Positions 14,656 to 20,835 of a stretch of DNA of 64,000 nt are shown in pieces. This stretch comes from Prochlorococcus marinus XMU1410. GTDB lineage: Bacteria; Cyanobacteriota; Cyanobacteriia; PCC-6307; Cyanobiaceae. Numbering within the stretch: the first letter of the stretch is position 1; each line of letters opens with the position of its first letter. The stretch spans positions 903,954 through 967,953 of the forward strand of contig NZ_JAAORH010000001.1 in the NCBI RefSeq assembly GCF_017696085.1, in the 5' to 3' direction. The position numbers and the translations under genes are program-made. Under the pieces are notes generated by a model. That model ran no database searches. It saw only the letters and a program-made list of their open reading frames with translations, and had not been told where the DNA came from.

Positions 14656-15441
14656 TTATTTGCGAAGCTTAGGAATCAAAAGAGATGCAACACAAATAAC
14701 ACTAATTGAAGGCCCAGGCGAAAGATTAAAGACTATAGAGAGAATAAATCCCAGAAGTGAAATGCATAATCCAAAAAATGAAGACCTCATCATTGCAATT
14801 CTTAAACTATGAGCCTTATTTAGCCCTAACAAAGTTGGAGTAGAAAGAAGAGCAATTACAAGAATTACTCCCACTGCTGACATTGAACTAACAATTACTA
14901 ATGATGTCGTAAAACTCAAAGCAAGATTTAATAAAGAAACGTTTATACCACTTGCGGATGCACCTTCTGGATCCAAACCCACATAAACAACCTTTTCATA
15001 TCCAAAAGTCATTAAAAGTATAAATACTAAAAAAGCAATTATTGTTCTAAGTAAATCTCCAAAATTTGCTGTCAATAAATCGCCAAATAATACTGCCTCC
15101 AAATCAATCCTTATTCCGAGTAGAGGGATAATAAGGACTCCAAACCCAAGCATTCCAGCAAGAATAGTATTCATAACTGCTTCATAATTTTCACTTTTTC
15201 TATTGGTTAAACTTTCCGCAATTACCGAGCCTAAAAGACCACTTATAACACCACCAATCGAAGGGTGAATTCCAAGCGCTAATGCGAGAGCAAGTCCAGG
15301 CAACACGCAATGAGAGATTAAATTAACTTGTAATAATCTCTTATGGGTGATTAATACAGTTCCCATCGCTGGGCATAAGATCCCAGAAAATATAGTTATT
15401 ATTAATGGAACCAACCACCAGTTGTTATTAATAAAAGACAT
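14656..15441 (-). CDS. znuB: zinc ABC transporter permease ZnuB
   Basis: A 261-residue ABC-3 family metal permease with about eight membrane helices. Visible family signs are Pro-Ala-Met-Gly-Thr-Val-Leu-Ile-Thr-His-Lys near residue 24, Ser-His-Cys-Val-Leu-Pro-Gly-Leu-Ala-Leu-Ala, and Gly-Val-Ile-Leu-Val-Ile-Ala-Leu-Leu-Ser-Thr-Pro. It works with ZnuC and ZnuA to import zinc. Its start is 17 bp from the divergent zur start. znuC lies further upstream on the same strand, with zur antisense between them. Confidence 0.93.
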   Translation of the reverse strand: MSFINNNWWLVPLIITIFSGILCPAMGTVLITHKRLLQVNLISHCVLPGLALALALGIHPSIGGVISGLLGSVIAESLTNRKSENYEAVMNTILAGMLGFGVLIIPLLGIRIDLEAVLFGDLLTANFGDLLRTIIAFLVFILLMTFGYEKVVYVGLDPEGASASGINVSLLNLALSFTTSLVIVSSMSAVGVILVIALLSTPTLLGLNKAHSLRIAMMRSSFFGLCISLLGFILSIVFNLSPGPSISVICVASLLIPKLRK

Positions 15442-15458: not shown

Positions 15459-15893
15459 ATGATCAAAAATACGAGTCAAAAAAAGATTTTGGAAACAATG
15501 GTAACTAAGTCTGACATTACCAAAAGACAAGAACAACTTCTTGAAGAACTTAATAAATGCGAGGATGAATTGAGCGGTCAAGAATTGCATAGGCAGTTGA
15601 TCACAAAAGGTAAATCTATGGGGTTGACCACTGTTTATAGAAATCTGCAAATCTTGATAAAGCATGGATTAATTCGTTCTAGACATCTCCCAACAGGAGA
15701 GGTTCTTTACACTCCCGTAGACAGAGATATTCATCATTTGACCTGCGTTCAATGCGGAGAGACGTCGAAAATGGAAGGTTGTCCTGTTAAAGATATTCAT
15801 GCCCCTAAAAAAAATCCAAGAAAGTTTCAACTTTTGTTTCATACACTCGAATATTTCGGCCTTTGCCAAAACTGTTATCAAGCTCAAAATTAA
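15459..15893 (+). CDS. zur: Zur, zinc-responsive Fur-family repressor
   Basis: A 144-residue Fur-family protein: an N-terminal winged helix (Leu-Thr-Thr-Val-Tyr-Arg-Asn-Leu at about 56-63 is the recognition helix) and a C-terminal metal-binding dimerisation domain. It has His92-His93, Cys96-x-x-Cys99 and Cys136-x-x-Cys139, the structural zinc cysteines. Context inside the znu locus points to Zur rather than Fur or PerR. The ATG at codon 14 is an alternative start. Zur with Zn represses zinc-uptake genes, presumably through the box upstream of znuA. Confidence 0.9.
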   Translation: MIKNTSQKKILETMVTKSDITKRQEQLLEELNKCEDELSGQELHRQLITKGKSMGLTTVYRNLQILIKHGLIRSRHLPTGEVLYTPVDRDIHHLTCVQCGETSKMEGCPVKDIHAPKKNPRKFQLLFHTLEYFGLCQNCYQAQN

Positions 15894-15906: not shown

Positions 15907-16677
15907 CTAATCACAGAAATTATTTTCCTTTTTAGAGCTTATGTTTATCGCATCTAATTTATCTTTTATTTGATCAGGACTACCAACTGCTAAAACACTT
16001 TTATCAAGAACGATTACTTGATCGTAGTTATTTAGAGACTCGCCCCAATCATGGCTACTTACTAGCAAAGAAAGTCCCGCATCTGCGAGTTGACGAACAA
16101 TTTTCAGGAAGTCCTCTTTTGCGGGGGGATCCAATGCCGCACAAGGTTCATCCAGAAGAAATATTTTTGCAGGGGACATAAGAGTTTTTGCTAATAGAGC
16201 TCTTTGTTGCTGTCCTCCTGAAAGAGAATCGAGTCTTCTATTAGCCAAATTAGCAATTCCTACTCTTTGCATTGTCGCTTCTAATTCACAACATTTATTA
16301 ATCCAAGAATTAGGATATTCTAGAAGAGCCTTGATTTGAAATGGGTTATTACTTCTTGATTTTGAATACTTTATTTGACCAAGAGATACCAATTTTTCAA
16401 CTGTAATGGGAAACTTCCAATTCATAGAACTTCTTTGAGGCATAAGTGCCACTAGAGCTCTAGATCTATTTAAATTTTCACCGTCAATTTTTATTTCGCC
16501 TTTATCTGGAGTATTTTGTCCTTGCAATATCCTCAAAAGAGTGGATTTACCGGCACCATTTGGACCTACTAGCGCTGTTAGAGTTCCAGGTTTAATCTCA
16601 ACCGATACCTTATTTAAAGCTGGCTTACTTTTTACTGTGTATGCAAATGTTAAATTTTCAGCGACTAAAGTAGCCAT
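15907..16677 (-). CDS. znuC: zinc ABC transporter ATPase ZnuC
   Basis: A 256-residue ABC ATPase. Walker A Gly-Pro-Asn-Gly-Ala-Gly-Lys-Ser-Thr is at 38-46, the signature Leu-Ser-Gly-Gly-Gln-Gln-Gln-Arg at 152-159, Walker B Ile-Phe-Leu-Leu-Asp-Glu-Pro at 172-178, and a switch His in Ser-Ser-His-Asp. It energises ZnuB. It is divergent from znuA across a 138-bp control region with a Zur-type palindrome. Its 3' end is 13 bp from the convergent end of zur. Confidence 0.93.
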   Translation of the reverse strand: MATLVAENLTFAYTVKSKPALNKVSVEIKPGTLTALVGPNGAGKSTLLRILQGQNTPDKGEIKIDGENLNRSRALVALMPQRSSMNWKFPITVEKLVSLGQIKYSKSRSNNPFQIKALLEYPNSWINKCCELEATMQRVGIANLANRRLDSLSGGQQQRALLAKTLMSPAKIFLLDEPCAALDPPAKEDFLKIVRQLADAGLSLLVSSHDWGESLNNYDQVIVLDKSVLAVGSPDQIKDKLDAINISSKKENNFCD

Positions 16678-16778
16678 TAATTAATCTTCATGAAAAAAGT
16701 CACTTTACAAGCTTACCAATAATACAAGCTGCGTATTATTTTCATAACATTTGATATCTTTTCTTGTCAGGTCTAATG

Positions 16779-16795
16779 AAAATGATTATCATTTT
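16779..16795. promoter_or_regulatory. Zur-type operator between znuC and znuA
   Basis: AAAATGATTATCATTTT is a 17-bp palindrome, perfect around the central base, and has the Fur-superfamily box form (cyanobacterial Zur sites resemble TGATAATNATTATCA). It lies 20 bp before the znuA start in the divergent control region. That it binds Zur is inferred from position and form. Confidence 0.75.
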
Positions 16796-16815: not shown

Positions 16816-18357
16816 ATGTCAATTTTTAAAAGACTTTTATCAAATAAAGCATGTTCAAGTAAGTCAATTATTAAAAATTCCGTAATCGCTGGAACAATTA
16901 TATTTTCTGGTTTTGGGCAGGATGTAATGGCTAAAGGGAAGTTATACGTAGCAGTAGAACCACTAGTTTGTGATTTAGTTAAATCAATTGCGTTACCATC
17001 TGACGAAGTTACATGCTTAGTAGATAGAAAACAGGATGTTCATGACTTAAAGATCAATCCAAGACAAGCTCAATTACTAAATAGCGCAGACAAAGTATTC
17101 ACTCTTGGCAAAGAAATGACTCCAAGTATGAGAAATTGGGAAAGTAAAAAGAATACTGTTGTTGTAGGTGTTAGTGCAATAGACGTAGATGATCATTCTG
17201 ATCATGAAGGTCATGATGATCATTCAGACCATGGCGGACATGACGATCATTCTGAACATTCAGCTAAGGTAGATGATCATTCTGATCATGGAGGTCATGA
17301 TGATCATTCAGACCATGGTGGACATGATGATCATGCTGAGGGTGCTTTCGAATGGGCAGGTAAATTCCAGCTTTCTAAGGGTTCATACAAATGGTCATTT
17401 GAAAAAGTCGATGGCGAATATGCAGATCCTGCAATGAAGATGGTGATTCTCAAATCTAATGACATAGAAGGGTCTGAAGATTTAGCCAAAGAATTATTAG
17501 GATCTAAAGACTCAATAAGCAGAAAAAATGATGGAACTTTGATAGCAAGTAATAAAGCTTTTGTTCTTAACTTTGATCAAAGAAAAGAAAGTACTGTTTT
17601 TAACGTGGATATCAAAGAAGATGGTGAATATATATTTTTTACTGAACACATGCCTTTTGAGTTTGAAGCAACTCAACACTTTTTTAAAGACGTTTCAAAT
17701 AGTGATGTAGAACCAATAGCACAAGTTCCAGACGAAGGAGAAGGGCATCATCATCATGACCATGGAGGTCTAGATCCACATGTATGGCATGATCCACATA
17801 ACATCATAAAAATGGGAGATCTTATAAGCAAAAGTATAAAGAAAGATATTTCAGTTTTTAATAGAGGTGACAGAAAACTAATTAATGAAAGATTCGAAAA
17901 AGCTGATTCTCTCTTAGAAGGCTTAGATAGTTGGATCGTCGAACAAGTAAGCTCTATTCCTGAGGAAAACAGAGTAATTGTCTCTAAACACAAAGCAATG
18001 GAATACTACGGGGATGCATTTGGTTTTGAAACCATTAGTTTACTTGACTTTCTTGGAGACTCCTCAAGCTTAAGGCCAGACAACATAAGTTCTACTTTAA
18101 AAATGTTAGATGAAGAGAAAGTTCAGGCAATATTTCCTGAACAAATTCCAGCATCTAAGTTATTAAGGAACTTAAGTAGACAAAGTTCAGTTCCTTTAGC
18201 TTCTAATCAAATATTCGTTGATGGATTGATGATGGATGGTAATACGGTTTCAGTAGCCGTACACAACACTTGTACAATTGTTGATTCATTAGGTGGAAGT
18301 TGTGATAAAGAATCTGGTTCCAATCTTGAGTCTGAATGGTACAAACTTTCAGATTAA
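16816..18357 (+). CDS. znuA: zinc-binding protein ZnuA with His-rich repeats and an inserted domain
   Basis: A 513-residue periplasmic cluster-9 binding protein, far longer than the usual 300 or so. It has a signal peptide to about residue 39, then the N-terminal lobe with Val-His-Asp at about 75. A His/Asp-rich repeat region (125-174) follows, then an extra domain (about 178-290) that also occurs in the GTPase downstream. Next come a second His cluster (Gly-His-His-His-His-Asp-His) and the family motif Asp-Pro-His-Val-Trp-His-Asp-Pro. The C-terminal lobe has Ser-Lys-His-Lys-Ala. It hands zinc to ZnuBC. The His region probably buffers or senses zinc. Expression is likely Zur-controlled. Confidence 0.93.
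   Translation: MSIFKRLLSNKACSSKSIIKNSVIAGTIIFSGFGQDVMAKGKLYVAVEPLVCDLVKSIALPSDEVTCLVDRKQDVHDLKINPRQAQLLNSADKVFTLGKEMTPSMRNWESKKNTVVVGVSAIDVDDHSDHEGHDDHSDHGGHDDHSEHSAKVDDHSDHGGHDDHSDHGGHDDHAEGAFEWAGKFQLSKGSYKWSFEKVDGEYADPAMKMVILKSNDIEGSEDLAKELLGSKDSISRKNDGTLIASNKAFVLNFDQRKESTVFNVDIKEDGEYIFFTEHMPFEFEATQHFFKDVSNSDVEPIAQVPDEGEGHHHHDHGGLDPHVWHDPHNIIKMGDLISKSIKKDISVFNRGDRKLINERFEKADSLLEGLDSWIVEQVSSIPEENRVIVSKHKAMEYYGDAFGFETISLLDFLGDSSSLRPDNISSTLKMLDEEKVQAIFPEQIPASKLLRNLSRQSSVPLASNQIFVDGLMMDGNTVSVAVHNTCTIVDSLGGSCDKESGSNLESEWYKLSD
17188..17335 (+). repeat. 84-bp tandem duplication coding His/Asp-rich repeats in znuA
   Basis: The unit beginning GATGATCATTCTGATCATG at 17188 recurs at 17272. About 64 bp of the second unit match with few changes. 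Each unit is itself made of a shorter Asp-Asp-His-Ser-Asp-His-Gly-Gly-His periodicity. Confidence 0.85.
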
Positions 18358-18433
18358 ATTTTTCTAATAAAAACGGTTTTCATTTCTTATTTTTACTATT
18401 ATTAAACTAATGTTTATTTGGTAAAACCATTAA

Positions 18434-19789
18434 ATGAGCATCAAAGATAAAGTTCCAGTTACTATTCTCACTGGATTTCTAGGTTCAGGGAAAACTACTT
18501 TACTTAATAGAATACTAAGTGAAGAGCACGGGAAAAGAATAGCCGTAATTGAGAATGAATACGGTGAAGTAGGGATAGATCAAGGGCTCGTAATTAATGC
18601 CGATGAAGAAGTGTTTGAGATGTCAAACGGGTGCATTTGTTGTACTGTTCGCGGTGATTTAATAAGAGTCCTTGGCAACCTTATGAAAAGAAGAGATAAG
18701 TTTGACTATGTTTTAGTAGAAACGACCGGATTAGCAGATCCTGGGCCAGTCGCGCAGACATTTTTCATGGATGAAGAAATTAGTTCTGAATTTACTCTTG
18801 ATGGAATTGTAACTTTAGTTGATGCTGCTCATATTGATCAGCAGCTAGGAAGAAGTGATGAAAGTTCAGAACAAGTTGCGTTTGCAGATGTTCTTGTCCT
18901 TAATAAAACTGATTTAGTCTCTGATGATGCACTAGATACTCTTGAATCGAGATTGAGAGATATGAACCGAATGACTCGAATCATTAGAGCCGAGAATGCC
19001 CAAGTACCAATCGAAACAGTCCTAAATCTAAGTGCATTTGATCTCGATCAAATCCTTAAACGCAGACCAACATTTCTTGAACCAGAATATCCTTTTGAAT
19101 GGACAGGTGTTTACGACCTTGCTGCAGGTAAATATGAATTAAAGCTAGAAGAAGGTCCCGATCCAGAAATGTCATTAGTTGCTTACGCTAATCAAGGTGA
19201 GAGCGAAGAAGAACTTAAAGATGGTGCTGAATCCTGCGTAAGACTTTATGCAGAAAAAGCTAAAAGCTTAGAACCTGGGAATATCATTCCATTTGGAGAA
19301 CATATAAACCTTAAATTGGAGGATAAAGGAAATAAATCATTCATATTAGATATCGATAAGGGATCAAAGATAGGTTTATATACACAGCACACTGCTGAAG
19401 AATTCAATATGAAAATCATTAAAAGTGAAGACAATAATTCAAAAGAGATCCCATTTAATATTGAAAGATTCTGGCAAGCCGAGCACGAGCACGATGATGA
19501 AGTAACGTCCATTGCAATTGAACGATTTGGAGATGTTGATCCAGAAAAACTTAATACTTGGTTGGGCAGACTTCTTTCTGAAAAAGGGGTGGATATATTT
19601 AGAACTAAAGGTTTCATTAGCTACTCAGGCAACCCACAGAGAATAGTTTTCCAAGGGGTACATATGTTATTTACAGCGCAACCTGATAAGGAATGGGGTA
19701 ACGAACCTCGTAGAAACCAACTTGTTTTTATAGGTAGAAATTTGGACGAGAAAGAGATGAAAGAAGGTTTTGAAAAATGCCTGATATAG
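18434..19789 (+). CDS. COG0523 (CobW-like) metal-chaperone GTPase with inserted domain
   Basis: A 451-residue G3E-family GTPase. Walker A Gly-Phe-Leu-Gly-Ser-Gly-Lys-Thr-Thr is at 14-22, the metal-binding Cys-Ile-Cys-Cys at 67-70, and Glu-Thr-Thr-Gly-Leu-Ala-Asp-Pro follows. Between the GTPase and the C-terminal CobW_C domain (about 355-450) sits an insert (about 221-330) that matches the extra domain of ZnuA: Phe-Glu-Trp-x-Gly at its start and Thr-(Glu/Gln)-His then Glu-Phe near its end. Location downstream of znuA points to a zinc allocation role in low zinc. It overlaps the WD40 gene by 13 bp. Confidence 0.9.
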   Translation: MSIKDKVPVTILTGFLGSGKTTLLNRILSEEHGKRIAVIENEYGEVGIDQGLVINADEEVFEMSNGCICCTVRGDLIRVLGNLMKRRDKFDYVLVETTGLADPGPVAQTFFMDEEISSEFTLDGIVTLVDAAHIDQQLGRSDESSEQVAFADVLVLNKTDLVSDDALDTLESRLRDMNRMTRIIRAENAQVPIETVLNLSAFDLDQILKRRPTFLEPEYPFEWTGVYDLAAGKYELKLEEGPDPEMSLVAYANQGESEEELKDGAESCVRLYAEKAKSLEPGNIIPFGEHINLKLEDKGNKSFILDIDKGSKIGLYTQHTAEEFNMKIIKSEDNNSKEIPFNIERFWQAEHEHDDEVTSIAIERFGDVDPEKLNTWLGRLLSEKGVDIFRTKGFISYSGNPQRIVFQGVHMLFTAQPDKEWGNEPRRNQLVFIGRNLDEKEMKEGFEKCLI

Positions 19790-20835
19790 AATCATTTAGC
19801 CCAAGAGGTATGTTCCACGAGGGATGGACAGCTGAAGTTAATGATTATGCCATAGTTTGTGGTTGGGCTACTAAAGGAAAGTTATTCATTGTTGGGGATG
19901 TAGCAGGAGGTATTTTTGCCTTTGAAGGAGATACTGGGAAAATTATTTGGAAAAAAGAAAATACACACTCTGCTGGTCTATTAGCAATGTCCATTCATCC
20001 AGAAGGGGAGATTTTTGCAACTTCCGGTCAAGATGGAAATATTCAAATATATAATTGTCACGAAGGTAAAGTAATTAAAACTCTCGATCTTGGCAAGGCT
20101 TGGGTAGAGCATCTTAAGTGGTCAAATGATGGCTTATTTCTTGCAGCAGCTTCTTCAAAAAAAGTATATGTTTTTAATGAAATTGGTGAAGAAAAATGGG
20201 TATCAGATGATCATCCAAGCACAGTGAGTGCAATAAAATGGTCAAATAATAATGAGCTAGCTACAGCCTGCTACGGGAGAGTAACATTCTTTGACATAGT
20301 AAATAATAAAACGAATCAAAAGCTCGAGTGGCAAGGATCATTAGTCTCAATGGAATTAAGTCCTGATGGTGATATAGTCGCTTGCGGGAGTCAAGACAAT
20401 TCAGTTCATTTTTGGAGAAGATCAACCGGAATGGATGCTGAAATGACAGGATACCCAGGAAAACCTAGTCACCTTTCTTTTGACGATAGTGGAAAATTAC
20501 TGGCAACTAGTGGCAGTGAAAGAATTACAGTGTGGAGCTTTATAGGTGACGGTCCCGAGGGAACTATGCCGGGAGAGCTATGGCACCATACCGAACCTAT
20601 TTCTAGCCTAGCCTTTTCAAATAAAGGCATGCTTGTAGCTTCCGGGTCTAGAGATGGTTCTGTTGTCGCAAGTTTTCTAAAAAAAGACGGTAATGGTGAC
20701 CCAGTTGGGGCTGCATTCGCAGGCGATTTAGTGGGTGCACTTTCGTGGAGACCTGATGATTGTGCACTAGCTGCAGTTAACGCAAAAGGTGTAGTAAATG
20801 TTTGGAAATTTAAAGTTCGTACTAATTCTTTTTGA
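19777..20835 (+). CDS. WD40-repeat protein coupled to the COG0523 GTPase
   Basis: A 352-residue protein with about six to seven WD40-like blades: recurring Ser-Pro-Asp-Gly/His-Pro-Glu-Gly, Ala-Ser/Thr-Gly-Ser/Gln-Asp and Val-x-x-Trp motifs (for example Gly-Ser-Gln-Asp-Asn-Ser-Val-His-Phe-Trp). There is no signal peptide, so it should be cytosolic. Its start overlaps the GTPase gene by 13 bp, so translation is probably coupled and the two may act together as scaffold and chaperone. Function inferred from neighbours only. Confidence 0.88.
   Translation: MPDIESFSPRGMFHEGWTAEVNDYAIVCGWATKGKLFIVGDVAGGIFAFEGDTGKIIWKKENTHSAGLLAMSIHPEGEIFATSGQDGNIQIYNCHEGKVIKTLDLGKAWVEHLKWSNDGLFLAAASSKKVYVFNEIGEEKWVSDDHPSTVSAIKWSNNNELATACYGRVTFFDIVNNKTNQKLEWQGSLVSMELSPDGDIVACGSQDNSVHFWRRSTGMDAEMTGYPGKPSHLSFDDSGKLLATSGSERITVWSFIGDGPEGTMPGELWHHTEPISSLAFSNKGMLVASGSRDGSVVASFLKKDGNGDPVGAAFAGDLVGALSWRPDDCALAAVNAKGVVNVWKFKVRTNSF

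Follow-up and report, generated by a model that had tools for sequence, protein, structure and literature searches.

Prochlorococcus marinus XMU1410 carries, within a stretch of 64,000 nucleotides that was analysed as a whole and is called the window here (assembly GCF_017696085.1, contig NZ_JAAORH010000001.1, positions 903,954 to 967,953 of the forward strand), a gene for the zinc substrate-binding protein ZnuA followed by a gene for a COG0523 G3E GTPase. Both proteins contain an insert of similar size, and the locus therefore raises the question whether the two inserts are one domain and what such a domain might do in both hosts. We found that they are copies of an undescribed domain of about 110 residues, predicted to fold as a beta sandwich with one helix. 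The reading that we favour, with a probability of roughly 0.55, is that this module is a mobile accessory domain in which Glu7, Asp32, His106 and Glu110 (module numbering) would hold a divalent metal.

An initial annotation of the window had proposed, from an alignment by eye, that ZnuA and the GTPase share an inserted domain, and the proposal was confirmed. Profile-profile comparison of the two modules gave a probability of 98.4 and an expectation value (E) of 6.3e-15 over 102 columns, an E-value that is rough because the ZnuA profile was shallow (Neff 1.7); an alignment below significance, which the annotation had named as a result that would speak against its proposal, did not occur. In BLASTP of the two whole proteins, a comparison of two sequences only, E was 1e-4 and 18 of 49 residues were identical in the best stretch. 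When the two inserts were compared alone, BLASTP gave 4e-6, and the Smith-Waterman score, 76, exceeded those of all 5000 shuffles, the highest of which was 62. At E 0.001, a profile built from ZnuA modules alone recovered 114 of the 140 open reading frames (ORFs) for GTPases with a full module, and a GTPase-only profile recovered all 79 ZnuA ORFs, both sets including many close relatives. None of 3362 reversed ORFs matched any of three profiles at that threshold, the best E-values being 0.57 and 1.8 for the two single-host profiles. The module of a haloarchaeal ZnuA matched both profiles (6.4e-15 and 2.3e-23) and thus links the two forms. A chance or convergent likeness of two unrelated inserts could appeal to nothing more than the 18 identical residues of the best BLASTP stretch; chance was ruled out by the shuffle test, the profile-profile E-value and the reversed-ORF control, and with the haloarchaeal module bridging both profiles we give this explanation next to no credence.

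The module lies outside the known domains of both hosts. In ZnuA, the Pfam match is split into two stretches that leave the module out, and in the GTPase the module falls between cobW (residues 8-184) and CobW_C (residues 358-450), which bears out the earlier view that it belongs to neither the standard ZnuA fold nor the standard CobW fold. All the motifs that had been named were found, in the order ZnuA/GTPase: FEWAG/FEWTG, LSKGSY/LAAGKY, DPAM/DPEM and TEHMPFEF/TQHTAEEF. The inserts are real, and the ends first given, near residues 290 and 330, were placed slightly too far; we put them at 283 and 329. That one host is probably exported and the other cytosolic is supported by the protein families and by the N-terminus of ZnuA.

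Four residues of the module did not vary. We tabulated 16 columns over 212 distinct complete modules, leaving out modules that were shorter than 105 residues or contained X. Glu7, Asp32, His106 and Glu110 were present in 212 of 212, and the other 12 columns all varied, among them Trp8 (209), Gly10 and Phe6 (207 each), Phe111 (206), Gly17 and Met35 (204 each) and Pro33 (203). In a thinned set of 62 modules, every column of the window ZnuA was screened, and again these four and no others were invariant (62/62). All four are possible metal ligands. In the predicted models, Glu7 stands at the start of strand 1, Asp32 just before strand 3, and His106 and Glu110 just after the last long strand, and the four should share one end of the sandwich. 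The earlier suggestion that the module may sense or hold zinc fits these residues and the metal-handling hosts; the metal itself we infer.

The module was then found in a wide range of hosts. We fetched 223 distinct ORFs with a full module, many of them close relatives of one another: 140 COG0523 GTPases, which are spread over many phyla, 79 ZnuAs and 4 others. The ZnuA hosts belong to Prochlorococcus and near relatives, to three alphaproteobacterial genomes (L063, L069, L243), to haloarchaeal plasmids (L108 and L112 were looked at) and to the archaeal phylum of genome G365, in which eight genomes have a module ZnuA. With a combined profile, and in sampled sets each of which includes its centre genome, a known carrier, a match was found in 23 of 292 genomes of the window's phylum, 2/398 in the phylum of G344, 14/221 in that of G360, 5/199 in that of G366, 12/193 in that of G369 and 8/64 in that of G345. 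The hosts in the last five phyla were all GTPases. The order of G353 gave 2/235 and the phylum of G365 10/194, one of the ten (G1700) being a partial match. The haloarchaeal and Bacillota hosts were drawn from plasmid records. Three small haloarchaeal proteins (L110, L111, L176) consist of a solo module with His-rich ends and starts that resemble twin-arginine translocation (Tat) lipoprotein signals. One of them, in Natrinema versiforme (L176, 4875-5426), is encoded directly after a urease operon, a position that hints at nickel. In a membrane protein of Alicyclobacillus (L109), encoded in a metal-transport gene cluster, the module follows a His-bearing stretch, and HSILPDH near the N-terminus fits HX4DH, the signature of NiCoT-type transporters. 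No transporter model matched this protein (in Pfam only DUF2207_C at E 0.23, in NCBIfam nothing), and we therefore did not class it as NiCoT. From the neighbouring urease genes and the HX4DH host, it seems that the metal handled elsewhere may be nickel or cobalt. Viral spread was dropped as a candidate: with one haloarchaeal module as the query, no match was found in phages, and of 34 stretches of viral contigs that fitted a pattern, none coded for a relative.

Some hosts departed from the simple arrangement. Prochlorococcus-type ZnuAs of 611-624 residues carry two modules in tandem (L011, L019, L023, L031, L036, L037, L102, L103, L139), and nine distinct two-module ORFs were free of N. An 842-residue frame with two identical modules in G270 (L137, 823-3351, minus strand) spans a run of N; it is an assembly artefact and was not counted as tandem. 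In Pantoea soli (L174, 5100-6711), the module GTPase and its WD40 partner are short separate frames, and the pair looks broken. Two archaeal ZnuAs (L245, 418-2874, minus strand; L247, 583-3363, plus strand) show, by eye, split stretches near LEEGEHIVEFE and EGDYGFA, which possibly form a divergent second sandwich, broken up by the module and by His tracts.

AlphaFold2 models of the two window modules were built from separate alignments (18 rows for ZnuA, 35 for the GTPase). Both contain, in order, three strands, a helix, a short strand and three more long strands. The ZnuA model alone has an extra short strand at 69-71, and the GTPase model alone ends with a short helix and a strand, the same end in the ZnuA model (110-115) having a confidence score (pLDDT) below 50. 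Judged by the order of elements, the predicted folds thus agree in the main and differ in small elements. Foldseek searches of the PDB gave no match at E 0.001 for either model, a result that does not establish a new fold. On structural re-alignment, the C-terminal domains of SEC14-like proteins, which are GOLD domains, ranked first for both models, with many other sandwiches near: Z 6.0 with a root-mean-square deviation of 3.5 over 90 residues for one model, and Z 4.7 with 3.2 over 82 residues for the other. The p24 GOLD domain was at row 5 (Z 5.3) for the first and at row 39 (Z 3.4) for the second, for which viral capsid and Eph-receptor rows were tied with the first ones; a Z below 8 may reflect merely a common arrangement. 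Searches for a known family in Pfam, NCBIfam and PDB sequences gave nothing for the module itself: 25 of 25 modules matched no Pfam family at E 0.01, the ZinT-type model included, and neither module profile matched a PDB sequence at E 1. Neither the literature searched, which mostly lies outside subscription journals, nor the portions of text available from PMC2770081, PMC10957091, PMC9337993 and PMC8786288 pointed to a description of the domain.

The same re-alignments bear on the nature of the ion. Both models gave weak matches to CBM35 domains, which use calcium (Z 3.8 in one case and up to 4.6 in the other), and the invariant set is rich in acids, as one would expect if the module were a sandwich with a structural calcium that binds another ligand, such as a carbohydrate or peptide, and had no role in transition-metal trafficking. 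Against this, 219 of the 223 distinct ORFs encode a ZnuA or a COG0523 protein, and the GTPases are probably cytosolic, where free calcium is scarce. We regard this explanation as improbable.

A second alternative is that the module is a protein-protein interaction domain, a sandwich of GOLD-like type that places its host, for instance on a WD40 partner or an envelope protein, its conserved residues being a binding edge or the site of a structural ion. It draws on the rank of the SEC14-like and p24 domains, on the WD40 gene that follows the GTPase gene in 132 of the 139 module GTPases with room downstream, and on the presence of both hosts in 15 of the 23 module-positive cyanobacterial genomes (by frame length; in G270, where one of the three matches is a copy at a scaffold gap, both hosts are present regardless). 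Against it, exported ZnuAs and solo proteins should be out of reach of a presumably cytosolic WD40 protein, the structural matches with their tied capsid and receptor rows are of the grade that a common arrangement may give, and every invariant column holds a possible metal ligand. We consider it unlikely, if the least unlikely of the alternatives weighed here. The more specific idea of the initial annotation, a docking module joining ZnuA and the GTPase, was not supported, though the 15 cyanobacterial genomes speak in its favour. Among 32 other genomes chosen for a module GTPase, a second module, in ZnuA, was present in only 2. Eight archaeal genomes and the alphaproteobacterium G1657 had a single match each, in ZnuA, although many of the genomes in these counts may be incomplete. 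On the haloarchaeal plasmid L108, two COG0523 genes without the module stand beside the module ZnuA, and the module also occurs in solo and membrane hosts. Outside picocyanobacteria, the pairing of the two hosts is thus not obligate, and this speaks against docking between them.

How, then, did ZnuAs of such different organisms come by the module? Between Prochlorococcus and alphaproteobacterial ZnuAs, the modules were 58-70% identical, against 22-29% for the N-terminal and 20-29% for the C-terminal part of the body. In ten pairs within Prochlorococcus, module and body differed by at most 10 points, apart from one N-body difference of 12 (in one example pair, 69% for the module and 65 and 62% for the bodies). 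Because module and bodies diverge alike there, strong constraint on the module alone fails to explain the contrast, and the exported form seems to have spread as a cassette between the ZnuA genes of unrelated organisms. The tail behind the module, which reads HFFKDV..DVEPIAQ in the window, is common to Prochlorococcus and alphaproteobacterial ZnuAs, and a similar one is present in the archaeal phylum of G365, whose modules are otherwise 30-34% identical to the bacterial ones. We built two trees, the second with eight long-branch GTPase rows dropped and five ZnuA rows added. In both, one branch split the exported from the GTPase modules (support 100/100 and 99/93), and the Alicyclobacillus module grouped with those of the GTPases. 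For tandem ZnuAs of three strains, first copies clustered together and second copies clustered together in the second tree, less clearly in the first, suggesting that the doubling is older than the split of those strains. As a guess, the 9/27/84-base-pair (bp) repeats of the His linker could serve as a crossing point.

Of the 79 ZnuA ORFs, 68 have at least five His in the 60 residues that precede the module, and all 79 have at least five in the 60 that follow it. The rule that the module always stands beside a His tract held for ZnuA and solo hosts and failed for the GTPases; the tract is a feature of exported hosts and not of the module itself. Under the metal-binding reading, the module would pass a divalent metal to the host's own site, or take it from there. 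In ZnuA, placed inside the His-rich loop, it would draw zinc from the His tract and, when the supply is very low, retain it or hand it on. In the GTPase, where it lies between the G domain and CobW_C, it would retain the metal destined for delivery by the GTPase. Zinc is the most likely metal here because of the znu genes and the probable Zur box. A fuller version, in which a Glu-Asp-His-Glu metal domain serves both sides of the membrane, has been swapped as a cassette among the ZnuAs of Prochlorococcus, alphaproteobacteria and archaea, perhaps with the repeats of His codons at its edges in ZnuA genes as the crossing point, and supplies an extra zinc or cobalt site, we advance tentatively, at somewhat less than even odds.

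Several observations weigh against the metal-binding reading and the transfer tied to it. Some of the modules were retrieved with patterns in which Glu7 or Asp32 is specified; Trp8 belongs to the same pattern and still varies, and the genomes were searched with a profile. A set of three carboxylates and one His would be suited to calcium or manganese too. Glu110 lies within the low-confidence end of the ZnuA model, and the best Foldseek rows differed between the models, influenza hemagglutinins for one and TNF/C1q-like and viral capsid sandwiches for the other, none at E 0.001. At least five His within 40 residues on either side were found in just 1 of 140 GTPases. The trees conflict, since alphaproteobacterial modules fell inside Prochlorococcus in the first and Prochlorococcus inside the alphaproteobacterial modules in the second, and the evidence for transfer comes from three alphaproteobacterial ZnuAs, a near-identical pair among them.

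The features of the locus are collected in Table 1. Genes for an ABC permease and an ATPase accompany znuA, and the window ZnuA scored 141.7 bits against PF01297, above the cut-off of 29. The GTPase has its Walker A, CxCC and NKxD motifs. A profile search of the whole genome gave two module matches in total, the ZnuA and the GTPase described here; the same genome encodes a second PF01297 protein, without the module, in a 302-residue frame (G000:C1:547972-548760). In the DNA of the His linker (17185-17339), an 84-bp unit is repeated 1.8 times with 94% match, and the length of the linker varies among strains. Against a consensus for the Zur box, 26 sites with at most 3 mismatches were counted in the window against 18.8 expected, a number reached in 5 of 100 shuffles; TGAAAATGATTATCA is the window's sole site with 1 mismatch. 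The available part of a study of Synechococcus WH8102 (PMC9337993) places a predicted Zur box in the same znuC-znuA gap, reports that the znu cluster synw0968-synw0973 is upregulated in a zur mutant, and describes synw0972 as uncharacterised and likely to be co-transcribed with znuA.

Table 1. Features of the znu locus and of the two module-bearing proteins, in window coordinates.
Feature	Position	Strand	Evidence or remark
znuB, ABC-3 permease	14656..15441	-	Pfam ABC-3 6.9e-43
Fur-family regulator, probably Zur	15459..15893	+	Pfam FUR 2.1e-19; Zur assigned by position only
znuC, ATPase	15907..16677	-	Pfam ABC_tran 2e-31
Zur-box-like site TGAAAATGATTATCA, znuC-znuA gap	16777..16791	+	1 mismatch to consensus
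znuA, zinc substrate-binding protein, 513 residues	16816..18357	+	Pfam ZnuA (PF01297) 3.9e-41, two stretches
First His-rich linker of ZnuA, residues 127-177, 15 His in 51 residues	17194..17346	+	9/27/84-bp tandem repeats
Module in ZnuA, residues 178-283	17347..17664	+	Profile-profile match; AlphaFold2 pLDDT 83.6, pTM 0.76
Invariant Glu179 of ZnuA (module position 7)	17350..17352	+	
Invariant Asp204 of ZnuA (position 32)	17425..17427	+	
Invariant His278 of ZnuA (position 106)	17647..17649	+	
Invariant Glu282 of ZnuA (position 110)	17659..17661	+	
Tail HFFKDVSNSDVEPIAQVPDEG and second His cluster of ZnuA, residues 288-319	17677..17772	+	
COG0523 G3E GTPase, 451 residues	18434..19789	+	Pfam cobW 2.2e-61, CobW_C 4.8e-25
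Module in GTPase, residues 221-329	19094..19420	+	Profile-profile match; AlphaFold2 pLDDT 86.1, pTM 0.77
Invariant Glu222 of GTPase	19097..19099	+	
Invariant Asp243 of GTPase	19160..19162	+	
Invariant His319 of GTPase	19388..19390	+	
Invariant Glu323 of GTPase	19400..19402	+	
WD40 protein gene	19777..20835	+	Pfam; 13-base overlap with GTPase gene

Compared with known systems, the window ZnuA is like other PF01297 proteins in its Pfam match, its adjoining znuB and znuC and its His-rich tract, and differs in having a predicted folded domain of about 110 residues within the His-rich stretch, two in tandem in some Prochlorococcus. AdcA-type zinc proteins carry an accessory ZinT domain fused at the end. 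The likeness there is an accessory domain, probably metal-binding in our case, joined to a ZnuA body; the module is inserted instead of terminal, and none of the 25 modules searched had a Pfam match. A His-rich loop is reported for the ZnuA of Synechocystis in the available part of PMC8786288. According to the accessible text of Haas et al. (2009, PMC2770081), COG0523 subfamily 5 adjoins a WD40 gene and znuABC, and the C-terminal region is highly variable; the text also describes His stretches. The window GTPase resembles subfamily 5 in its cobW and CobW_C domains, its CxCC motif and its WD40 and znuABC neighbours, and differs from it by the module between cobW and CobW_C. Against the AztC model, the window ZnuA scored 106.6 bits (1.5e-30), under the cut-off of 350. 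In the AztC/AztD zinc pair (PMC6689063), AztD is a separate protein, whereas here the additional domain lies within ZnuA, and the WD40 gene is associated with the GTPase. Accessory metal-binding domains on ZnuA bodies are already known, and what is new is an unnamed family of its own with a wider host range.

Prochlorococcus, a highly abundant phototroph, lives in zinc-poor water. A concrete candidate for its zinc uptake there is a ZnuA that bears the module and is encoded beside znuB, znuC and a probable Zur, and if the metal-binding reading is true, the domain would provide ZnuA with an additional site for zinc (or cobalt) that suits such water. The metal and the role of the module are directly testable, since there are four residues to target by mutagenesis, several natural hosts to choose from and a solo form that can be purified. 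If the spread as a cassette is also true, the module would be a clear case of a domain, rather than a gene, passing between distant microbes.

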